NCBI RefSeq assembly: GCF_004363655.1
Contig: NZ_SNZH01000001.1
Location: forward strand, 54,569-118,568
Length of the DNA: 64,000 bases
Reading direction: 5' to 3'
DNA from: Tahibacter aquaticus
GTDB taxonomy: Bacteria > Pseudomonadota > Gammaproteobacteria > Xanthomonadales > Rhodanobacteraceae
Part shown: in pieces, positions 31,364 to 42,545 of the stretch
Position numbering within the stretch: the first letter of the stretch is position 1
Layout of the letters: every line of letters begins with the position of its first letter
Translations under genes and position numbers: made by a program
The notes under the pieces: model-generated
Told to the model about the DNA's origin: nothing
The model's input: only the letters and a program-made list of their open reading frames with translations
Database searches by the model: none

Positions 31364-32050
31364 TCAGGCCTCGGCCCAGCGTCGCAGCAGGTTGTGGTAG
31401 ACGCCGACCAGCTGCACCAGGGCCGGGTGTTCCGCGTGCTGCTGGGTCAGGCTCTGGATCGATACATCGAGGTCGAACAGCAGGCGGCGCTGGCCTTCGT
31501 CGCGCACCAGGCTTTGTATCCAGAAGAACGACGCCAGCCGCTCGCCGCGCGTGATCGCCGTGACCTGGTGCAGGCTGCTGGCCGGATACAGGATCAGATC
31601 GCCCGCAGGCAGCTTGACGCTGTGCGTGCCGAAGCTGTCCTCGATCACCAGCTCGCCACCGTCGTAGTCTTCCGGCGCATTGAGGAACAGCGTGGCCGAA
31701 AGGTCGGTGCGCAGAGCGCTGCGATCGTCGCCCGTGCGCGGATAGCGCACCGCATTGTCCACATGGAAACCGAACGACTGGCCGACGCGGTAGCAGTTGA
31801 ACAGCGGCGGAAAGATGCGCTGCGGCAGCGCGCCGGCCATGAAGGTGGGATGGCGGCGCAGACGATCGACAACCAGCGCGCCGAGTTCGCGCGCGACGGC
31901 ATGGTCGTCCGCCAGTTGCAGGTTCTGCTTGGCCTTGGCCGACTGGTAGCCGGCGGTGATGCGTCCATCCGACCACTCCGCCGCGGCAAGCATCTCGCGG
32001 CAGTGGGCGACTTCCTGGGCAGTCAGGACTTGGGCGACGTGTAGCAACAT
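31364..32050 (-). CDS. piuC: PKHD-type Fe(II)/2-oxoglutarate hydroxylase (YbiX/PiuC)
   Basis: This 228-aa dioxygenase has the iron ligands H96 and D98 (FGFHVDN) and H161 (LHQV), and the 2-oxoglutarate Arg171 (GERLASFFW). The start [21 protein letters not shown] is typical of PiuC/YbiX, so the ATG at 32050 is chosen over the much longer open frame. This family is almost always next to a catecholate-siderophore TonB receptor (Fiu/PiuA) and is iron-repressed, exactly as here. The substrate of the hydroxylation is not known. Confidence 0.92.
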
Positions 32051-32265: not shown

Positions 32266-34701
32266 TCAGAAGGAATACGTCGCCTGCAAGGTCACTTGGC
32301 GGCCTTCGCCCGGCGTTGCCCAGCCGCTGGCGGCGGTGCGGATGCGCACGTAGTACTCCTTGTCGAACAGGTTGTTCACGTTGAGCTGCAGGCGCAGATC
32401 GCGGTTCACGTTCCACGCGGCCATGGCGCGGTGGGTCCAGTAGTCGTCGGCCTTGGCCAGCGGGCCGTTGATATTGGCCGCGCTGTGCTGGTTCAGGTAG
32501 TACTCGCCCTGGTAGTTCATGCCGTAGCCGAACTGCCACTGGCCGACGTCGACGGTAGTCCAGACGTTGAACGAATGTTCCGGCACCACCACCAGTTCGT
32601 CGCCGCGGGTGTAGTCCAGTCCCTGGCCGGCCTGGCGATTGGACACGCCCTGCAGCACTTCGCTGTCGAGGTAGGTGTAGTTGGCGTATACCGCCCAATG
32701 CTTGGTGATGTTGCCGCTGGCGCCCAGCATCACACCATCGACGCGCGCTTCGCCGTCGAGCTGCTGTTCGCCGGCCGGGTTGTCCGGATTGCCCGGATCG
32801 GCGACGCGGTAGTTCTCGCGGTCGTTGCGGAAGATCGACGCGGTCAGCGACAGGCGCTGGTCGAGCAGATCCCACTTGGTGCCGATTTCGTAGTTGACCG
32901 CGGTTTCCGGATCGACGTTGCAGTTGTTCGTGCCGGTGGTGCTGCCCACCGTGCAGGAGCCGTTGACCGAAGCCTTGGACGGCGTCTTGGAATTGCCGTA
33001 GGCGATATAGATGCTGCCCGCCTCGACCGGCTTGAACACCAGGCCGGCGCGATAGGAAAACAGGTCGTCGGCGTTCTTGCTCGGCGCGCTCGCACCGGTG
33101 ATCGTGCCGATGGGGCCGGCGGCGCCGGCTGCGGTGGAAACGGTATAGGCCGTGCTGCTGCCCTCGTTGTGTTCGTAACGCGCACCGAGGTTCAACTGCC
33201 ACTGCTCGCTGAACTTCAAGGTATCGAATGCGTAAATTGCCGCATTGTCCTGTTCGCCATCGGTCTTGCTGGTCAGGGTGCGGTTGCGCGGGCCGGTGTA
33301 ATAGGTATCCGGGTTGTACAGATCGGTAAATGGCAGATGATTCGGCGCCGCATACGGATTGCTGCCGTCGGCATTGCGGAATTCGCTACTGCCGACCAGC
33401 GCAAAACTTTCGTGCGACAGGGAAAAACCGCCGACCAGGGTGTGCTCGATTGCGCCAGTGCTGAACTTCGCGGTCAGGTCGGTCTGGTTGACCAGCATGC
33501 GGTTGGTGGTGTCGCGCACATTGCCGCGCGGACCAGAAGGCATATATGTGTTCGGCGGAACCACGATCTGGGTCGCACCGGTACCGATGGTGCAGCTGCC
33601 GCCGACCGGAGTCAGGTTGTTGGCCAGGCAGTACGTGCCTTGCGGCGGATCGACGATGAGCAGCTGATTCACTTCCTGCACGCGGGTGAAATTGCGCAGG
33701 CTGAGGTTGTCGCTGAAGGTGTGGCTCAACACGCCGGTGAAGGAATCGACTTCGATTTCCTGCATGTCCACATTGCGGTAGCCGTAGTACGTGCTCGGGT
33801 CCAGACCCGGCAGCGGCGTGCCGCTGTTACCGACAAAGAAATACGGCACGCCGTATTGCGGCGTGTTGTCGTCGTACTGGTGCAGGTAGCTCAGGGTAAA
33901 GGTGGTGTCGCTGCCCAGGCCGAAGGCGATGGACGGCGCGAAGCCCCAGCGCTTCATTTCTTCCACGTCGCGGCCCGGCACGTCGTTGCGGTGGCCCATC
34001 AGGTTGACGCGAACGGCGACGCTGTCGCTGATGCTCTGGTTGCTGTCCAGGGTTACGCGGCCGTAGCTGTCGGTACCGACGCCGACGCCGAGATTGGTGA
34101 AATTGCCTTCGCGCGCGGCCTTGGAAACCAGGTTGATGGTGCCGCCGACCGAGCCCGCACCGGAGTAGACCGAATTGGCACCGTTGACGACTTCGATCTG
34201 CTCCAGGTTGAAGGTGTCGGTGCGCGAGTACTGCGCGCTGTCGCGCACGCCGTCGACCTGGATGTCGTTGTTGGCAGAGAAACCGCGCAGGTTGATGCTG
34301 TCGCCGAAACCGCCGCCGCCTTCGCCCGCGCCGAAAGTGATGCCCGGCAAGGTGGACAGCACATCGCGCAGGGACAGCAGGTTCTGACCGGCCATCACTT
34401 CCTGCGGCACGACTTCGATGGACTGCGGTGTATCGCGCAGCGGTGCGGTGTACTTGGGCGAGGATGCCTGCTTGGTCGAAACACCCGTCACGTCGACGGC
34501 GTCGAGCTTGGTCTCGTTGGCGCGACCGCGGCGGCCGTCGGCGCCATCGGGCATGTCCGCGCTGCTCGCAGCAGCGGCGGCTTCGGTGGCAACGTCGGCG
34601 AAGGCATGCGGTGCTGCCGTTGCCAGCGCCAGGCCCAGGGCCGTGCTGAGCAGGCGCGGCGGCGTAGCCGCTGCGGAACGGATATACGAGGCATTCGACA
34701 T
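32266..34701 (-). CDS. TonB-dependent siderophore receptor (Fiu/PiuA-like)
   Basis: This is an 811-aa outer-membrane receptor. Its signal peptide is followed by an Ala-rich linker, a TonB-box-like DAVDVTG and the plug (about 75-200; [61 protein letters not shown]). The barrel ends in QATYSF. The siderophore-receptor wording of the plug and the flanking PiuC-like gene point to a catecholate ligand. The ATG at 34701 begins the signal peptide ([10 protein letters not shown]). The Fur-box-like promoter at 34862-34891 should make it iron-repressed. Confidence 0.94.
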
Positions 34702-34861: not shown

Positions 34862-34891
34862 TCTTAACAGTAAATAAGAATGATTCGCAAC
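34862..34891 (-). promoter_or_regulatory. Fur-box-like promoter of the siderophore receptor
   Basis: On the minus strand, -35 TTGCGA (34890-34885) and -10 TTAAGA (34867-34862) are 17 nt apart. AATAAGAATGATTCGCAAC (34873-34891) matches the 19-bp Fur pattern AATGAGAATCATTCTCATT at 14 positions and covers the -35. Confidence 0.7.
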
Positions 34892-34971
34892 TCAGTTTTT
34901 AGTCGGATACGCGATAACAGGCGCAGCGGAAACGCTATCGGGCGTGCTGTGCCGCCTCTACTCAGGCGCCA

Positions 34972-36597
34972 TCAATACACGTCGCGCCGGTAACGCCCCT
35001 GCTCGGCCAGCTGCTCCAGCACCTCGGCGCCCAGCGCCGCGCGCAACTGCGCATCGACGGCGGGCGCCATGCCCTGCAGGCTACCGCAGACGTAGATGCA
35101 GGCGCCGGCGGCAACCCACTCTGCCAGCGCGGCGGCGGCCTCGCCGACGCGCTGCTGCACGTAGATCTTTTCCGCCTGGTCGCGGGAGAAAACCAGGTCG
35201 ACGCGTTCCAGCCAGCCGGATTCGCGCCAGCCTTCGATCTCGGCTTCGAAGAAATAGTCGCTGCGGCGATTGCGCTCGCCGAACAGCAGCCAGTTGCGCC
35301 GCTGGCCGGCGGCAATGCGCGCCTTGAGCAAGGCGCGCAGGCCGGCCAGCCCAGTGCCGTTGCCGATCAGGATCAGCGGGCACGGCCCTGCCGGCATGTG
35401 GAAATGACTATTTGTGCGCAAACGCAGATCGATGCCTGCTCCGTCCGCGGCCACAGCGGTGAGCCAGCCCGAGCCCAGGCCCAGGCTGCCGTCTTCGCTC
35501 CGCCATTGCCGTACCAGCAATTCCAGGCGGCCGTCGGCGGGAATCGAAGCGATGGAGTATTCGCGGTGCGGCAGCGGCTTGAGTTGCGCCGCCCACTGCG
35601 CCACGGAGCGCCCTTCGAGCTGCGCCGGCTGCGGCCATTGATGGCGTGCGAGGAACGCCGCCAGCGGTTCGCCGTCGGCGACGACGGCGTTGCCGTCCAG
35701 GCCTTGCCGCTGCAGCCACTGGCGTACCGCCTCGGCACTGTGGCGCGGACCGATTTCGGCAACGTCGCCGGCCTGCCAGGCCAGTTCGGTGCCGTCCTCC
35801 GGCACCAGGGCCAGATGAAAACACGCGCCGCCGGCGCTGCCGGGATTGAGCTGCGCGCGGGCCTGCAGACGCCAGCGCGCATAGTGCGGTGTCGACCAGT
35901 CGGCCTGGTCGCTACGCCCGGCCAGCACGCCGACCTGGTGCTGCCAATGGCGCAGCGCGCCCGGCTCGGCATTGTCCACTTCGATACGATCGAACAGCGA
36001 CTGGGCGCCCTGGTGGCGCAGCCACGCATCCAGGCGGCGGCCAAAGCCGCAGAACTGCGCATAGCTGCTGTCGCCCAGCGCCAGCACGGCATAGCGCAGC
36101 GAGGCCAATGCCTGGTCCTTGCCGAGTACGCGCCGGGCAAAGCCGGCGGCCATGTCGGGCGGATCGCCTTCGCCATAGGTGCTGACCACGAACAGCGCCT
36201 GGCTGCTGTCGCGCAGCACCTGGGCGTCGACCCGGTTGATCGCGAGCAGGCGTACGCCGCCGCCGGCTTCGCTCAAGGCGGCGGCGGTGCGCCGGGCCAG
36301 GTCTTCGGCCATGCCGGTCTGGCTGGCGTAGGCAACCAGGATCGCGTCGCTGCCGGTTGCGGCAAACGCCGGCGCGCGCTGGCGCCGGCGCTGCCGCCAA
36401 TGAATCATTGTGCAGAAAGCAACATATGCCACCACTGCCGCAGCAGCCGCAAGCCAGCGCTGCAGTCCCGGATCGGTCCAGGCCAGCTCGCGCGACTGCA
36501 ACCCGGCCGCCAGCCAGGCCAGGGCAGCCAACAGCAGCAGCACGCCGGCATTTCCCAGCCGCGCAGGCCAGTCGGGTGGCGACGGCGATTCGCTCAT
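34972..36597 (-). CDS. Membrane-anchored flavodoxin/FNR reductase (CysJ-like)
   Basis: This 541-aa diflavin reductase has two N-terminal TM helices (about 15-33 and 46-66). A flavodoxin domain with the FMN loop ASQTGMAEDL (about 85-225) is followed by a CysJ-type FAD/NADPH module with REYSIAS (FAD), GNGTGLAGLRALLKAR (NADPH) and the CysJ-like ending YRRDVY. In related proteins a PepSY_TM part is fused at the N-terminus; here PepSY is a separate gene in the same operon. Likely role: feed NADPH electrons to a membrane or periplasmic acceptor. It overlaps the ApbE gene by 4 nt (ATGA) and is the last gene of the Fur-type operon. Confidence 0.88.
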   Translation of the reverse strand: MSESPSPPDWPARLGNAGVLLLLAALAWLAAGLQSRELAWTDPGLQRWLAAAAAVVAYVAFCTMIHWRQRRRQRAPAFAATGSDAILVAYASQTGMAEDLARRTAAALSEAGGGVRLLAINRVDAQVLRDSSQALFVVSTYGEGDPPDMAAGFARRVLGKDQALASLRYAVLALGDSSYAQFCGFGRRLDAWLRHQGAQSLFDRIEVDNAEPGALRHWQHQVGVLAGRSDQADWSTPHYARWRLQARAQLNPGSAGGACFHLALVPEDGTELAWQAGDVAEIGPRHSAEAVRQWLQRQGLDGNAVVADGEPLAAFLARHQWPQPAQLEGRSVAQWAAQLKPLPHREYSIASIPADGRLELLVRQWRSEDGSLGLGSGWLTAVAADGAGIDLRLRTNSHFHMPAGPCPLILIGNGTGLAGLRALLKARIAAGQRRNWLLFGERNRRSDYFFEAEIEGWRESGWLERVDLVFSRDQAEKIYVQQRVGEAAAALAEWVAAGACIYVCGSLQGMAPAVDAQLRAALGAEVLEQLAEQGRYRRDVY

Positions 36598-37586
36598 GCG
36601 TAGCGGAAGCGCGCGAACGCCGCCGATTCCACCGTCGCCAGCCCCTGCCCCACCCGGCTGACGAAATGCGCGGCAATATCGTGGCGCTGGGCGAAGGCCA
36701 GGCCGGCTTCGGCGCCGAGCACGCTGAACGCAGTCGCATAGGCGTCGGCCAGCATGGTTTCCGCATGCAGCACGCTGACCGCCGCCAGTCCATGACTGAC
36801 CGGCTGGGCGGTACGCGGATCGATGGTGTGGGAATAGCGCCGGCCGGCACTGTCGAAATAGCGCAGGTAGTCGCCCGAGGTGGCGATGGCGCCGTCGCGC
36901 AGCACGCCGACCAGGGGCAGGCCGTGCTCCTGCTGCGGCGATTCGATAGCCACAAACCAGGGCTGGCCGTCGCCGCGGCGGCCGCAGGCGCGCAGTTCGC
37001 CGCCCACTTCGACCAGGTAGTCGTGCACGCCGAGCGAGCGCAGCGTCGCACAGACCTGGTCGACCGCATAACCTTTGGCAATTGCAGAAAGATCAAGAAA
37101 TATACCGCCAGGCTGCCATACCGCAAGCCGGCCGGCATCGACACGCAGGCGCTGCCAGCCGCAGTCGGCGCGGGCGCGGTCTATCGCGGCAGCCTCGGGC
37201 GGTGCGCTGCGCTGGCCGTCGGGTCCAAAGCCCCACAGATTGACCAGGCGGCCGACGGTCGGGTCGTAGGCACCGTCGGTTTCCCGGGCGACGGCCAGCG
37301 CCGTGGCGACGACATGGAAACACTGCGCCGGCAGTTCGACCCAGCTTTCGGCCGCGGCGGTGTTGTAGCGGCTCAGGTCCGAATCGCTGCGCCAGGTGCT
37401 CATCTGGCGGTCGACGCCGTCCAGCGCCGCGGCAATGGCCTGGGGCACGCGCACCGTGTCGAAGCCGCCATAGGCGCAGGCCTTGACCGACCAGCTCGTG
37501 CCCATGCTCAGGCCGGACCAGGCCTTCACCGGCCACTGCAGCAGGCGTCGCGGCAGCAGCCGGCGCGCGAAGGCTGACGCGCTCAT
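36594..37586 (-). CDS. apbE: ApbE-family FAD:protein FMN transferase
   Basis: This 330-aa enzyme attaches FMN from FAD to Thr/Ser of exported proteins. Family blocks seen are MGTSWSVK, MSTWRSDSDLSRYN, VNLWGFGP, DLSAIAKGYAVD, VEVGGELRACG, AIATSGDYLRYF, YSHTIDPRTAQPV and LADAYATAFSVLG. The ATG at 37586 is preferred to a GTG two codons earlier. The N-terminus is basic with a weak hydrophobic stretch and no clear lipobox, so its side of the membrane is less sure than usual. The natural substrate is probably the DUF2271 protein three genes upstream. Confidence 0.93.
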   Translation of the reverse strand: MSASAFARRLLPRRLLQWPVKAWSGLSMGTSWSVKACAYGGFDTVRVPQAIAAALDGVDRQMSTWRSDSDLSRYNTAAAESWVELPAQCFHVVATALAVARETDGAYDPTVGRLVNLWGFGPDGQRSAPPEAAAIDRARADCGWQRLRVDAGRLAVWQPGGIFLDLSAIAKGYAVDQVCATLRSLGVHDYLVEVGGELRACGRRGDGQPWFVAIESPQQEHGLPLVGVLRDGAIATSGDYLRYFDSAGRRYSHTIDPRTAQPVSHGLAAVSVLHAETMLADAYATAFSVLGAEAGLAFAQRHDIAAHFVSRVGQGLATVESAAFARFRYA

Positions 37587-37606
37587 GCGCACGCTGCCGT
37601 GGCAAG

Positions 37607-37631
37607 GCCGGCCAGGCTTGCGCCGGCCGGC
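37607..37631. repeat. GCCAGGCTTGCG-type palindromic element
   Basis: GCCGGCC (37607-37613) pairs with GGCCGGC (37625-37631). The loop core GCCAGGCTTGCG recurs at 32195-32206 and, inverted, at 47521-47532. It lies in the gap between the DUF4198 and ApbE genes. Confidence 0.5.
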
Positions 37632-37658
37632 AGTGGTGCGAGCGCAAGCGTCATGCGC

Positions 37659-38465
37659 TTACTGCGCCAGTACCTCGAACGTCGCCACATAGCTGGCGCG
37701 ACGCGAGGTGGCCTTGGGCACGCTGGCGTTCTTGTCTTCCAGCGTGGTTTCCAGCCAGTACATGCCGGCTGCAGGCCAGGTCACGCTGACTTCGCCATTC
37801 TTGTCGGTGGTCAGGTTCATCTCGTTCTGGGCATTGCGATAGCGGCTGCCGCCGGGAACGATCTCGATCTTCAGGTCGGCCGCGGGCTTGCCATCGAGGC
37901 TGAAGCGGAACTTGGCTGGCTCGCCGGCATACAGGTCGTTCGGATGCGTGACCGGCGTCATTTCCAGGCCCTTGCCGCTGGCCTTCAGCGCAGTGTCGTT
38001 CGGCTTGCCGGCGGTGGCGAACGTCTCGACGCGGCCTGTCGACTGGGTGATCTGCACGTTCTTGGCCTCGGCGGGAATGTCCTTGGCCAAGTCTTCGGCC
38101 TTGCCGCGCCAGCGCTTTTTCTCGCCGTTGAGTTCATAGCTGGCGGACAGGCCGTTGTTGACCAGGGCCACCTTGTAGGTGCCGTTCTTGTCCAGGTGCA
38201 GATCGAAGCTGGAGCGGAACTTGCCGGTGAACGGGTTTTCCGCCGTCGCCGCCGCACCGTCGGGCGCGGTGATGACCAGGTTGTCCAGGCGCAGCGGCAC
38301 ATGGTTGAAGTAGAACAGGTCGTTGGATACGGCGGCATCGACGGTGATCCACTGGTCCGGCGTCAGCACCGTGGCCGAGGGCAGCAGCCAGGCCTTGTGC
38401 GCATGGGCGGCGCCGGCGGCGAACAGGGCCAGTGCGAGGGCGGCGAGAGGGCGAATCGTCTTCAT
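37659..38465 (-). CDS. DUF4198-family exported protein
   Basis: This 268-aa periplasmic protein has a signal peptide (residues 1-22, ending AHA) followed by HKAWLLPSATVL, the conserved start of DUF4198. Later segments (LYAGEPAKFRF, TDKNGEVSVTWPAAGMYWLET) look like Ig-like beta strands. Some relatives belong to metal-uptake loci; function is not established. Here it is the third gene of the PepSY-DUF2271-DUF4198-ApbE-reductase set, 15 nt after DUF2271. Inference: a metal-binding or scaffold partner. Confidence 0.85.
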   Translation of the reverse strand: MKTIRPLAALALALFAAGAAHAHKAWLLPSATVLTPDQWITVDAAVSNDLFYFNHVPLRLDNLVITAPDGAAATAENPFTGKFRSSFDLHLDKNGTYKVALVNNGLSASYELNGEKKRWRGKAEDLAKDIPAEAKNVQITQSTGRVETFATAGKPNDTALKASGKGLEMTPVTHPNDLYAGEPAKFRFSLDGKPAADLKIEIVPGGSRYRNAQNEMNLTTDKNGEVSVTWPAAGMYWLETTLEDKNASVPKATSRRASYVATFEVLAQ

Positions 38466-38480
38466 GGTTTTCTCCGGGAA

Positions 38481-39020
38481 TCAGGGCGCGAGATCGAGCG
38501 AGACGGAACCCAGTTCCACTTCGCCCTTGGCATCGGCGTGGCTGGCGGCGGCCGGCGGCCACTGGAACGGAATACGCACGAGTTCATGGCCACCGACTTC
38601 GCGCGCGGCCTCGACCACCAGTTCGTACTTGCCCGGCTTGAGGCCGGCCAGCTGCGGCTGCTTGTCGTTGAAGCTGAGCCTGTGCACGCCGGCCGGGCGC
38701 GTCGCGCCGCTGACGCCGTCGATGGGCAAGGTGCTGCTGCGACCGCTGCGGCGCCACCACTGGCGCAGGTCGGCCAGCCATTTGCTGCCCTGTTCCTGCT
38801 TGCCGCTGCCCGCATCCTTGCCGGTCTTCTGCTGGTACCAGACAGCCAGGTTGGTCGCGACGCTGTTGTCCTCGTGCGCGACCCAGACCGCGATATACGG
38901 ACGATGGTATTCGGCCACGTTGAGGTTCGGCACTTCCACGCCGACGTTGAGATCGGCGGCCGCAGCGCTGCCGGCGAGCAGTGCGCCTAGCGCACCGTAG
39001 AGCTTGAGTCTGATACGCAT
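38481..39020 (-). CDS. DUF2271-family exported protein with flavinylation motif
   Basis: This 179-aa protein has a signal peptide (about 1-22, ending SAAAA) and the family stretch YHRPYIAVWVAHEDN. Residues 101-107 read D-G-V-S-G-A-T, which fits the ApbE target pattern D-x-x-(S/T)-G-A-(T/S); Thr107 would carry the FMN. The ApbE gene is two genes downstream. I infer a small periplasmic flavoprotein that relays electrons. It follows the PepSY gene by 10 nt. Confidence 0.87.
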   Translation of the reverse strand: MRIRLKLYGALGALLAGSAAAADLNVGVEVPNLNVAEYHRPYIAVWVAHEDNSVATNLAVWYQQKTGKDAGSGKQEQGSKWLADLRQWWRRSGRSSTLPIDGVSGATRPAGVHRLSFNDKQPQLAGLKPGKYELVVEAAREVGGHELVRIPFQWPPAAASHADAKGEVELGSVSLDLAP

Positions 39021-39030
39021 CTCTACCTCG

Positions 39031-39651
39031 TCAATGAATAAACAGGATCACCAGTAAAAAAGGCACTACCAGGCCGAGCGCCACCATGGGCCAGGTCGCC
39101 GGCCGCCGCGGCGCATGCAGCTGCAGCAGGAACAGGCCGGTGATGGCGAATACCAGGCAGGCCAGCGCGAAGATGTCGATGAACCAGGTCCAGGCCGCGC
39201 CGGTATTGCGCCCCTTGTGCAGATCGTTGAGCCAGGCAATCCAGCCGCGGTCGGTGCGTTCGTACTCGACCGCGCCGCTGGCCAGGTCGACGCTGGCCCA
39301 GGCATCGCCGCCGGGCCGCGGCAGCGAGATATACACCTCGTCCTCGCTCCACTCGGCCTGGCCGCCGGCAACGCGCACATCCAGGGCCTGCGCAAACCAC
39401 TGCGCCAGTTCCGGCACTACTGCCTGCTTGCCTTCCAGTTTCAGCTGCTGCAGCGATTCGCGCAGCGGTGCTGGCAGTTCCGCCTTGCGGTTGCTGACCA
39501 CAGGCTCGGCACCGATCTGGCTGGCGTGATTGAGGGTGATGCCGGTAAACGCGAACAGCAGCAGGCCGATCAGGCAGGCAGCCGAGGAAATCCAATGCCA
39601 TTCGTGCAAGGTCTTCAACCACCAGGCGCGGCGTTGTGGATCGTTGGCCAT
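39031..39651 (-). CDS. PepSY-associated TM protein
   Basis: This 206-aa membrane protein has a first TM helix at about 19-41 (WISSAACLIGLLLFAFTGITLNH), a PepSY-like periplasmic loop, and two TM helices near the C-terminus (about 155-177 and 182-204). WLNDLHKGRNTG, before the second helix, is typical of PepSY_TM proteins of iron loci; the His residues near the helices could bind haem. It is the first gene of the Fur-type operon. The ATG at 39651 is preferred to a start at 39699, which would lie almost on the predicted transcription start. Confidence 0.87.
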   Translation of the reverse strand: MANDPQRRAWWLKTLHEWHWISSAACLIGLLLFAFTGITLNHASQIGAEPVVSNRKAELPAPLRESLQQLKLEGKQAVVPELAQWFAQALDVRVAGGQAEWSEDEVYISLPRPGGDAWASVDLASGAVEYERTDRGWIAWLNDLHKGRNTGAAWTWFIDIFALACLVFAITGLFLLQLHAPRRPATWPMVALGLVVPFLLVILFIH

Positions 39652-39707
39652 GGAAGTCGGACGGCTCGCGCTACTGCGGCGCGCCGGGCAACGGCGCAAG
39701 GGCCGCG

Positions 39708-39737
39708 ATTACAGCACAAATGAGAATCAGTCTCAAT
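39708..39737 (-). promoter_or_regulatory. Fur-box promoter of the flavinylation operon
   Basis: On the minus strand, -35 TTGAGA (39736-39731) and -10 TGTAAT (39713-39708) are 17 nt apart. AATGAGAATCAGTCTCAAT (39719-39737) is a near-perfect Fur box lying across the -35 and spacer, as in the promoter at 34862-34891. Confidence 0.82.
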
Positions 39738-39960
39738 TCCACACATAACACGAAAGCCCCCGACGTTTGTCGCAGGCAATGCAGGCGACACCGCCACTGG
39801 CATCACGCCGGTAATGAACCGCCCATTCCTGCGCCTCAGCCAGCATATCGGCCTGCCGTTCCACGCCCGCGCCGGCAGGCCAACCATTCTGCACAGCCGC
39901 CCCCTGGCGTATTGCCCTGAAGCGGTGCGCCACTGACGCGCGCGATGCGGCTTTGTGCAC
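39733..39960 (-). CDS. Possible small ORF after the Rieske gene
   Basis: This is a 75-codon frame with a GTG start, 12 nt past the Rieske stop. It contains QEWAVHYRRDASGGVACIACDKRRG with a CxxC pair. I do not recognise it and there is no clear ribosome site, so it may be chance. Its 3' end runs into the Fur box. Confidence 0.2.
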   Translation of the reverse strand: MHKAASRASVAHRFRAIRQGAAVQNGWPAGAGVERQADMLAEAQEWAVHYRRDASGGVACIACDKRRGLSCYVWN

Positions 39961-39972
39961 AACTAGCCGATT

Positions 39973-40296
39973 TCAGTCCCAGCGATCGTCGCGCGTGAAC
40001 ACGGCGCCGTTTTCGGTCTTGACCGGAAACTTGGCGATGGGCTCGTACGCCGGCGGGCAGAGCACGGCGCCGCTGCGCAGGTCGAACCTGGCACCGTGGC
40101 GTATGCACTCGATGGTATAGCCCTCGACCGGGCCGCCGGCGAGTTCGCCGCCGTCATGGGTGCAGACATCTTCTACGGCGTACAGCTCGCCGTCGATATT
40201 GAACACGGCGATGGCGACATCGCCATCCCAGCCGATGCGGAATTCGCCGGGCAGCAGCTCGGCGGTGGCGCAGACGCGGATCCAGTTCTCGCTCAT
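39973..40296 (-). CDS. Rieske [2Fe-2S] ferredoxin
   Basis: This is a 107-aa stand-alone Rieske protein. C45-T-H47 and C64-x-x-H67 are the cluster ligands, in the usual VCTHDGG and CIRHGARFD contexts. It has no signal or TM segment, so it is cytosolic and resembles dioxygenase or NirD-type ferredoxins. It is the last clear gene of the SUF operon, 22 nt after the GNAT gene. Its place suggests a client of SUF assembly or an electron donor to it. The ATG at 40296 is chosen because the upstream part of the frame belongs to the GNAT gene's other strand phase. Confidence 0.92.
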   Translation of the reverse strand: MSENWIRVCATAELLPGEFRIGWDGDVAIAVFNIDGELYAVEDVCTHDGGELAGGPVEGYTIECIRHGARFDLRSGAVLCPPAYEPIAKFPVKTENGAVFTRDDRWD

Positions 40297-40318
40297 GGCG
40301 GCGGCGCGGCGAGAGGCT

Positions 40319-40873
40319 TCAGAGCCGCTTGGCCAGCACTTCGAACTGCAGGTCGTCGCGCTTGGGCAGGCCGAAGCGCGCGTCGCCGTAGGGGAAGGGC
40401 TTGAGCACGCCGGTGCGCACATAGCCGCGGCGTTCGTACCAGGCGATCAGGCTGTCGCGGATGGTGATCACGGTCATCTGCATTTCTGCGCAGTGCCATT
40501 CCACCGTGGCAATGCGTTCCGCCTCGGCCAGCACCAGCTTTCCGACGCCGCCGCCCTGCAGGCTGGGATCGACGGCGAACATGCCGAAATAGCCGATGTT
40601 GCGCCCCTGCTCCTGCAGCCGCTCGACATGGCAGCAGCACAGCAACTGGCCGTCGCGTTCGGCCAGCAGCACGCGGCTGTAGCCGCGTGCCAGCAATTCG
40701 GCGACAGAGCCCGGATCGGTGCGCTGACCATCGAGGAAGTCGGCTTCGGTCGTCCAGCCCTGCTTGCTCACGTCGCCGCGATAGGCCGACTCGACCAGGG
40801 CGACGATGGCATCGAGGTCGGCCACGGTGGCCGCGCGGAAGGTCAGCGGTGCAGATTCGGCAACAGCATTCAT
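40319..40873 (-). CDS. GNAT-family N-acetyltransferase
   Basis: This 184-aa protein has the acetyl-CoA loop DPSLQGGGVGKLVL (Q-x-x-G-x-G/A type), a FRAATVADLDAIVALVESAY start and a WYERRGYVRTG end, all standard for GNAT. It overlaps the sufU stop by 4 nt (ATGA), so it is translationally coupled to the SUF genes. The substrate is unknown. GNATs with this start are frequent near sufU in related genomes as far as I recall, but no role in cluster assembly is established. Confidence 0.88.
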   Translation of the reverse strand: MNAVAESAPLTFRAATVADLDAIVALVESAYRGDVSKQGWTTEADFLDGQRTDPGSVAELLARGYSRVLLAERDGQLLCCCHVERLQEQGRNIGYFGMFAVDPSLQGGGVGKLVLAEAERIATVEWHCAEMQMTVITIRDSLIAWYERRGYVRTGVLKPFPYGDARFGLPKRDDLQFEVLAKRL

Positions 40874-41316
40874 GCAGCGTCCTTTTCGGTTGTCGTATGC
40901 GCGTGGCCGGCCAGCGCCGCGGCCAGCGTAGCCCAGGGCAGCAGCGCACATTTGCGTCGCGCAGGATAGCGCGCCAGTTCGCCCAGCGCAGCGAGATCGC
41001 CCAGCGCCAGGCCAGCGGATTCGCCCTGCACCAGGGCCGTGAATTCCTGCTGCAGTGCGGCCAGCGCGGCCGCGTCCAGGCCTATTGCGCGCTCGCCCAG
41101 CAGCGAGGCGGTCGCCATGGCGATGGCGCAGCATTCGCCGCGGAAGGCGTAGTCGGCAATGCGGCCGTCGCGCAGCAGTATCTCGATCTGCAGCGAATCG
41201 CCGCACAGCGCATTCACGCCGTCGCAGCGATGGCTGGGCTGTTGCAGGCTGCCGAAACGGCGCGGCGCACGCTGGTGTGCCAGCACGATGTCGCGATACA
41301 GCGCCGGCGTGTCCAT
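40870..41316 (-). CDS. sufU: SufU-like iron-sulfur scaffold/sulfur-transfer protein
   Basis: This 148-aa protein has the start MDTPALYRDIVLAHQRAPRRFG. The metal/sulfur residues are C38-G-D40 (NALCGD), C63 (GECCAIAM) and C123 (RRKCALLPW). SufU accepts persulfide from SufS through a zinc-bound Cys. It stands where SufE would be in enterobacteria; no SufE or SufA is in the operon. The start is 2 nt after the sufS stop. Confidence 0.95.
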   Translation of the reverse strand: MDTPALYRDIVLAHQRAPRRFGSLQQPSHRCDGVNALCGDSLQIEILLRDGRIADYAFRGECCAIAMATASLLGERAIGLDAAALAALQQEFTALVQGESAGLALGDLAALGELARYPARRKCALLPWATLAAALAGHAHTTTEKDAA

Positions 41317-41318
41317 GC

Positions 41319-42545
41319 TCAGGCCAACAGGCGCCGGACCTTGTCCAGCGCGCGCACGAACGCATCGACTTCCTCGCGCGTGTTGTAGAACGCGAGCGAG
41401 GCGCGCGCCGTCGCCGGCACGCCGAAGAACTGCATCAGCGGATGCGCGCAGTGATGGCCCGAGCGCACGGCAACGCCTTCGTGGTCGAGCAGAGTGGCCA
41501 CGTCGTGCGCGTGCACGCCTTCGATCAGGAACGACATCACCGCCGCACGCTGGCGCGCGCGGCCGAACAGGCGCAGTCCGGGCACGCTCTGCAGTGCCTC
41601 GGTCGCATAGGCCAGCAGTTCCGCCTCGTACGCCTGGATGGCGGCAATGCCCACATTTTCCACATAGTCAATGGCGGCACCCAGGCCGATGAAGCCGGCG
41701 ATATTCGGCGTGCCTGCCTCGAACTTGTGCGGCGGATCGGCAAAGACCGTGCCGTCGAAACTGACCGTGCGGATCATCTCGCCGCCGCCGAAGAACGGCG
41801 GCATGGCGTCCAGGTGTTCGCGTTTCGCCCACAGTGCCCCGGTGCCGGTGGGGCCGAACAGCTTGTGCCCGGTCATGGCGTAGAAATCGCAGCCCAGCGC
41901 CTGCACATCGACGCGCTGGTGCGGACAGGCCTGCGAACCGTCGACCAGCAGCGGAATGCCGCGGGCGCGGCACAGCCGGGCGATCTCGGCCACCGGATTG
42001 ACCGTGCCAATCACGTTCGACACGTGCGCAACGGCGGCCAGCTTCACCTTCGGCGTCAGCATCGCCTCGAAGCGGTCCAGCAGCAGCTCGCCGTCGGCAC
42101 TGATCGGCGCGGCCTTGACGCTGGCGCCGCTGCGCGCCGCCACCAGCTGCCAGGGCACGATATTGGCGTGGTGCTCCATCTGCGTGACGAGGATTTCGTC
42201 ACCCGGCTGCAGCCGCGGCAGCGCGTAGCTGTAGGCGACCAGGTTGATGGCCTGGGTCGTACCGCTGGTCAGAACGAGCTGGTCGCGGCTGGGCACATTG
42301 AGAAAGCGCGCCAGCTTGTCGCGCGCACCTTCGTAGGCCGCCGTAGCCTGTTCGCCCAGGCTGTGCACGGCACGCGCGACGTTGGCGGTGTATTCGCGGT
42401 AATAGCCGTCCACTGCATCGACCACTGCCTGCGGTTTCTGCGCGGTATTGGCATTGTCGAAGTAGACCAGCGGCTTGCCGTGCACGCTGCGGCGCAATAC
42501 CGGAAAGTCGGCGCGCCAGCGTTGCGGATCGAAAGCAGAACTCAT
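41319..42545 (-). CDS. sufS: SufS-type cysteine desulfurase
   Basis: This 408-aa PLP enzyme turns cysteine into alanine and enzyme persulfide. Group-II hallmarks are YFDNANTAQKPQAVVDA, TSGTTQAINLVA, MEHHANIVPWQ, the PLP Lys in MTGHKLFGPTG, the active Cys in RSGHHCAHP, and the conserved GTPNIAG. It overlaps sufD by 4 nt. YFDNANTAQ (rather than the usual YLDNAATTQ) is a small variation. Confidence 0.97.
   Translation of the reverse strand: MSSAFDPQRWRADFPVLRRSVHGKPLVYFDNANTAQKPQAVVDAVDGYYREYTANVARAVHSLGEQATAAYEGARDKLARFLNVPSRDQLVLTSGTTQAINLVAYSYALPRLQPGDEILVTQMEHHANIVPWQLVAARSGASVKAAPISADGELLLDRFEAMLTPKVKLAAVAHVSNVIGTVNPVAEIARLCRARGIPLLVDGSQACPHQRVDVQALGCDFYAMTGHKLFGPTGTGALWAKREHLDAMPPFFGGGEMIRTVSFDGTVFADPPHKFEAGTPNIAGFIGLGAAIDYVENVGIAAIQAYEAELLAYATEALQSVPGLRLFGRARQRAAVMSFLIEGVHAHDVATLLDHEGVAVRSGHHCAHPLMQFFGVPATARASLAFYNTREEVDAFVRALDKVRRLLA

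Follow-up and report, generated by a model that had tools for sequence, protein, structure and literature searches.

A window of 64,000 nucleotides from Tahibacter aquaticus (contig NZ_SNZH01000001.1, positions 54,569 to 118,568) was analyzed, and all positions given here are those of this window. Five contiguous genes on the minus strand, spanning 39651 to 34972, encode a PepSY membrane protein, a DUF2271 protein, a DUF4198 protein, the FAD:protein FMN transferase ApbE and a diflavin reductase. A sequence-only reading had described this set as an iron-controlled operon for periplasmic flavinylation and electron transfer, and all five genes were found at the place it gave. Families were assigned with Pfam profiles, and all five proteins are secure members of the families named earlier. 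The gaps between the genes, in the order PepSY, DUF2271, DUF4198, ApbE and reductase, are 10, 15, 66 and -4 bp. The features are as follows:

39718..39738, no strand assigned: Fur box AAATGAGAATCAGTCTCAATT upstream of the PepSY gene (19/21, best Fur match in the 64 kb)
39031..39651, minus strand: PepSY_TM_like_2 membrane protein of 206 aa (PF16357, E=2.4e-84, 282.7 bits; PF03929, 42.2 bits; both above cut-off)
38481..39020, minus strand: DUF2271 protein of 179 aa with a Sec-type signal peptide, predicted FMN acceptor (PF10029, E=1.1e-48)
38700..38720, minus strand: flavinylation motif DGVSGAT with predicted acceptor Thr107 (DUF2271 residues 101-107)
37659..38465, minus strand: DUF4198 protein of 268 aa, exported, candidate metal-binding protein (PF10670, E=1.9e-59)
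36594..37592, minus strand: ApbE without export signal (PF02424, E=9.9e-87, 291 bits)
34972..36597, minus strand: membrane-anchored diflavin reductase of the CysJ/P450-reductase type, 541 aa (Flavodoxin_1 PF00258, E=7.3e-31; NAD_binding_1 PF00175, E=3.6e-9)
34872..34892, no strand assigned: second Fur box AAATAAGAATGATTCGCAACT, upstream of a TonB-dependent receptor (17/21, second best in the 64 kb)

The operon combines a PepSY-like protein clustered with a flavinylation gene, an exported DUF2271 protein and an [S/T]GA[S/T] motif, as in PepSY-like flavinylation systems. We consider it likely that it encodes a Fur-repressed trans-membrane ferric reductase module of this type.

The Fur-box promoter proposed earlier held up. 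Sites were scored with a 21-base consensus, and their significance was estimated from 1000 dinucleotide shuffles of each promoter. None of the 1000 shuffles reached the observed score, neither for the PepSY promoter nor for the receptor promoter, and the next-best Fur-like site anywhere in the window scored 14. With the classical 19-mer Fur consensus the signal was weaker (6/1000 shuffles for PepSY and 51/1000 for the receptor). Among 108 relatives that were scored, 90 carry a box (at least 14/20) no more than 300 bases upstream of the PepSY start; in the control, an equal length within the PepSY gene of the relatives, the maximum score was 11. The box directly upstream of PepSY is absent in some loci of Xanthomonas, Luteimonas and Pseudoxanthomonas. 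In most of the box-less loci the PepSY gene comes after the genes of the receptor and a PiuC-type dioxygenase on the same strand, and these operons may therefore be transcribed by read-through from the receptor and PiuC genes. Judged by its promoter box, the five-gene operon is a predicted iron-controlled member of the Fur regulon. For the equivalent five-gene operon of Caulobacter crescentus, strong induction by iron limitation and by fur deletion as well as Fur binding have been demonstrated (PMC3751524).

In the structure model, the PepSY protein has three transmembrane helices (residues 5-37, 151-182 and 184-205) and one periplasmic PepSY domain. Candidate haem ligands are H19, H42, H145, H179 and H206. 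Over the 108 loci, the histidine motif DLHKGR and the C-terminal histidine were conserved throughout (108/108 each), WHW was found in 106 and NHA in 96. The conserved histidines sit near both membrane faces of the model, as in FoxB and CrpH, which have conserved histidines at both membrane faces, two per face (PMC13038864). Haem and reductase activity have been shown for larger PepSY relatives; by histidine conservation and placement, the window protein is a putative haem protein as well.

Membrane anchoring of the diflavin reductase had also been predicted, and it is confirmed by two N-terminal hydrophobic segments (residues 12-35 and 47-67). Flavodoxin, FAD-binding and NAD(P)-binding domains are all represented: Flavodoxin_1 and NAD_binding_1 matched above cut-off, and FAD_binding_1 matched partially and below cut-off. 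The connecting domain is reduced. SRDQxxKxYVQ, read directly in the sequence, is a CPR/CysJ-like NADPH signature. The match to TIGR01931 (cysJ) reached 241 bits, which is below cut-off, and the closest solved structures are CysJ and P450 reductases. In G013 and G022, two relatives lacking DUF2271, one polypeptide joins a full-size PepSY_TM domain to flavodoxin and NAD-binding domains of the same kinds, the PiuB arrangement. These fusions support direct contact between the PepSY protein and the reductase. A survey of flavinylation systems counted 1077 PepSY proteins with an NAD-binding domain (PMC8238504).

DUF2271 had been assigned a D-x-x-(S/T)-G-A-(T/S) site, and it does possess one. DGVSGAT occurs once in the protein, and no other protein of the operon contains the full motif. 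Thr107 is invariant in all 25 aligned relatives, and the export signal, judged by hydrophobicity and an AxA site, is conserved among relatives. In Amantichitinum ursilacus, FMN was found at the motif threonine of DUF2271, and substitution of this residue abolished flavinylation (PMC8238504). By its motif and by analogy to this experiment, the window DUF2271 would carry FMN as well. Elsewhere, the genome of the window encodes a signal-bearing ApbE-DUF2271 fusion (L056, G000:C8, about 167218-168573), with a TonB-dependent receptor and a DUF4198 gene in its vicinity. In the DUF2271 part of the fusion, SGIARAT stands at the position of the motif, and the flavinylation site may have been lost.

The earlier expectation that ApbE flavinylates an exported protein stands as to enzyme and site; periplasmic attachment, which it had implied, does not agree with the ApbE sequence. 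ApbE is full-length, spanning positions 1-265 of the 266 of the PF02424 profile, and starts with GTG at 37592 or ATG at 37586. No N-terminal hydrophobic segment was found (the best 19-residue mean within the first 60 aa was 0.79), and neither a signal peptide nor a lipobox was recognized, as judged by hydrophobicity and not by SignalP. To place this in context, 103 operon ApbEs were scored by their most hydrophobic 12-residue stretch from any in-frame start, a measure that involves no trained predictor. Scores below 1.4 were obtained for 74 of them, which count as signal-less, scores of 1.9 or higher for 21, and 8 lay between. As controls, the exported DUF4198 proteins of the same loci had a median of 2.40 (minimum 1.83), and the cytosolic dioxygenase had a median of 0.54 (maximum 1.81). 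Where ApbE is signal-less and the start of DUF2271 could be read, DUF2271 bears a signal in 69 of 69 loci. Since ApbE lacks an export signal while DUF2271 is exported, flavinylation is likely to take place in the cytosol. That the DUF2271 precursor receives its FMN from a cytosolic ApbE, here and in most related operons, and that Sec then exports the FMN-bearing protein, is to our mind an even prospect. The minimal ApbE site is a linear motif of seven residues (PMC12052999). An unfolded precursor would thus be modifiable in principle. The Sec pathway is also said to pass bulky attachments, as reportedly described by Bonardi et al. in 2011.

Alternatively, ApbE could be periplasmic after all via an unrecognized route, or another exported ApbE could modify DUF2271 while the operon ApbE has a cytosolic job. 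A review pairs exported targets with exported ApbE and cytosolic targets with cytosolic ApbE (PMC12052999). Besides the fusion mentioned above, the genome of the window encodes a second, membrane-anchored ApbE (G000:C10), and for this reason the window alone cannot decide the side of flavinylation. Moreover, in five genomes whose operon has no apbE, the same scoring assigns a lipoprotein signal or a membrane anchor to the single ApbE encoded elsewhere, a result that also serves as a control of the scoring. Arguing against this alternative, the signal-less operon ApbE is the only ApbE in 21 of the 35 genomes searched, these being named genome records without stated completeness. FMN_bind, DUF3570 and NqrB/RnfD domains were not found in 20 single-ApbE genomes, 19 of them with a signal-less ApbE and one (Pigmentiphaga humi) unclear. 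Of the substrate families tested, DUF2271 is thus the sole one remaining in these 19 of the 21 genomes; the completely sequenced Stenotrophomonas maltophilia D457 is among the 19. An unrecognized signal in a shifted frame was considered as well. A 23-codon open reading frame (ORF), MTLALAPLPAGASLAGLATAACA, ends at the ApbE start and is weakly hydrophobic (1.58). This idea was rejected, as a hydrophobic ORF is absent in 69 of 71 relatives' loci, with 10 loci having no room for one. On balance, a periplasmic ApbE, or a different exported one acting on DUF2271, appears somewhat unlikely.

The presence or absence of an ApbE export signal can also be viewed across the family. By a fewest-steps count, the export state changed at least six times on the ApbE tree, and at least three of these changes lie on well-supported branches. 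In 38 of 109 loci the DUF2271 motif reads TGPT or SGPT instead of [S/T]GA[S/T], e.g., TGPT and not SGAT at the putative flavinylation site in Xanthomonas and Stenotrophomonas (loci such as L045-L047). This variant occurs in none of the 20 loci with a signal-bearing ApbE, and its link to signal-less ApbE could be accounted for by relatedness. SGAT or TGAT is present in the window and in 34 loci with a signal-less ApbE.

The earlier delimitation of the system (34972-39737) covered the operon and omitted the second Fur box and two adjoining genes:

32266..34701, minus strand: Fiu/PiuA-type TonB-dependent siderophore receptor in the adjacent transcription unit (above cut-off for TIGR01783 with 252 bits; below cut-off for PRK09840 Fiu with 444 bits)
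31364..32050, minus strand: PKHD-type Fe(II) dioxygenase of the PiuC/YbiX/CciO type (PF18331 and PF13640; NF003975, 356.7 bits, above cut-off)

A receptor and a dioxygenase of these types adjoin the operon in many relatives, downstream of it in the window and upstream in Stenotrophomonas and Xanthomonas. The corresponding pair of Caulobacter, CciT/CciO, is needed under chelation stress (PMC12004947). FeoB is also encoded in the genome of the window. The full order PepSY-DUF2271-DUF4198-ApbE-reductase is retained in 74 of 80 named relatives, which span Lysobacterales, Burkholderiales and Rhodospirillales; the remaining 6 are partly cut by contig ends. Among the relatives, Tahibacter caeni, T. 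soli and further Rhodanobacteraceae are close to the window. At L038 (G004), L051 (G043) and L142 (G118) the operon lacks an apbE of its own, and each of these genomes has one ApbE elsewhere, bearing a membrane anchor or a lipoprotein signal. A more distant arrangement was seen at L150, L151 and L152, where the reductase gene adjoins a signal-less apbE and no PepSY gene was found by tblastn. The operon is also carried by a record titled Bacillus subtilis SK7B5 (L120), whose ApbE groups within Stenotrophomonas; this assembly is probably mislabelled or contaminated. Upstream of the window operon on the same strand (39973-42545), ORFs resembling a Rieske-type ferredoxin, a GNAT acetyltransferase, a SufU/IscU scaffold and a SufS cysteine desulfurase were noted by eye; they look like an iron-sulphur assembly cluster adjoining the iron operon.

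DUF4198 had been recognized earlier as a member of the gene set and had been given no role; it is now predicted to bind metal. The predicted mature N-terminus is His23 (AHA|HK; cleavage site inferred), and His23 and His55 are invariant in all 25 relatives. The structure model (pLDDT 87) matches the metal-bound Zcp (9mhm/9mhl) and the Ni-bound DUF4198 of Ideonella sakaiensis (9gcb). In the latter, Ni is coordinated by two histidines, one of them the N-terminal residue (PMC12537917). The window protein shares the fold with Zcp (9mhl-9mhn) and IsDUF4198, at about 15% identity, and with IsDUF4198 also the N-terminal histidine. The model and the conserved histidines suggest that DUF4198 is probably the periplasmic metal-binding part of the module. 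As an aside, chains of the PDB entries 9mhi-9mho are labelled phosphoribosylglycinamide formyltransferase in the sequence file, while the entries are Zcp with the DUF4198 fold.

The metals bound by these proteins raise the question of whether the substrate of the module is a different metal or chelate, for instance a copper or nickel complex, with DUF4198 as the metal carrier. IsDUF4198 binds Ni(II), its preferred metal, with a Kd of 18 nM, and iron binding was not reported (PMC12537917); Zcp structures were solved with zinc, copper and cobalt; and CrpH, which represents another branch of PepSY_TM proteins, appears to serve copper enzymes (PMC13038864). The Fur boxes in the window and its relatives, the Fur control of the Caulobacter operon together with the lower fitness of its insertion mutants in EDTA (PMC12004947), and the linkage to a Fiu/PiuA-type receptor and PiuC speak for iron. 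We regard a metal other than iron as improbable.

For the ferric reductase module, the following sequence of events is proposed. First, upon iron shortage, Fur would leave both promoters. Second, the diflavin reductase would take electrons from cytosolic NAD(P)H via FAD and FMN and pass them to the PepSY protein, which would conduct them through the membrane via two bis-His b haems. Third, soluble DUF2271 with FMN on Thr107 would accept the electrons at the periplasmic face and reduce Fe(III) that TonB-dependent receptors, e.g., the adjoining Fiu-type receptor, have taken up. Fe(II) may then bind DUF4198 via its N-terminal histidine and would be imported, e.g., by FeoB. Prior to its export by Sec, the DUF2271 precursor would have received FMN in the cytosol, the site of FAD synthesis. 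The order reductase, PepSY protein and DUF2271, as given in the sequence-only reading, fits the sequence and the literature; that the acceptor would be a ferric siderophore, and not another ferric chelate, is our inference. The operon encodes no acceptor, and other flavinylated proteins serve varied acceptors (PMC8238504). The reduced FMN protein might thus serve periplasmic redox repair or quenching during iron starvation instead of iron release. The strict iron control, the linkage to an iron receptor and the fitness cost in EDTA make such a role very improbable.

Several observations weigh against a ferric reductase. The operon evidence in this organism consists of sequence and models. The PepSY protein has half the size of FoxB and one PepSY domain instead of two, and with three membrane helices it also departs from the four of FoxB-type proteins. 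When the PDB was searched with the PepSY model by Foldseek, no structure, FoxB included, matched below E 0.1, and the likeness to FoxB is therefore one of Pfam family and histidine positions only. A PDB sequence search likewise returned nothing for PepSY and chance hits only for DUF2271. The copper branch of PepSY_TM proteins and the nickel preference of IsDUF4198 belong here too. Finally, the operon of G004, a relative of the same genus, has no apbE, so that the linkage to apbE is not absolute.

Gene set, order and Fur control are already known from Caulobacter crescentus CC_3059-CC_3063 (CCNA_03155-03159), which has the same five domains in the same order and a Fur box, and differs in the organism. 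As the sequence-only reading stated, ApbE-linked modules have been surveyed: PepSY-like flavinylation systems were described in 3220 clusters by Meheust et al. in 2021, and iron reduction was proposed there (PMC8238504). The statement of the sequence-only reading that the function of this set is not settled was too cautious in view of Fur binding, iron-dependent expression and EDTA fitness in Caulobacter and of FMN on the A. ursilacus DUF2271. The window has the PepSY protein, ApbE, DUF2271 and DUF4198 of the surveyed systems, but its reductase is encoded apart from them as a membrane-anchored diflavin protein, and its ApbE is without export signal. In the survey, a signal on only one flavinylation gene per cluster sufficed (PMC8238504), so a signal-less ApbE need not have stood out. 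With the siderophore reductases FoxB, PiuB, FhuB and HiuB, the window PepSY protein has in common its Pfam PepSY_TM kinship, membrane histidines and iron context, and PiuB-type fusions carry the same reductase; it differs from them by its half size, its one PepSY domain and its partner, a separate flavin protein. The cytosolic ApbE for fumarate reductase of Klebsiella also has no signal peptide; its target is cytosolic, whereas the window DUF2271 is Sec-exported (PMC12052999). A description of a signal-less ApbE paired with an exported target was not found in the literature searched.

Thus, the operon is a further clear example of a widespread, biochemically unproven class of iron reductases. 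Its neighbours, a Fiu/PiuA-type receptor and PiuC, point to a catechol-type ferric chelate as candidate acceptor. The ApbE result weighs more than the operon itself: genomes with a single signal-less ApbE, like S. maltophilia D457, make the rule that exported targets are served by exported ApbE directly testable. If flavinylation is indeed cytosolic, Sec can carry a flavinylated precursor, and no periplasmic supply or export of FAD would be needed for this system. The side of flavinylation would then be an evolutionary variable, with three to six switches on the ApbE tree.

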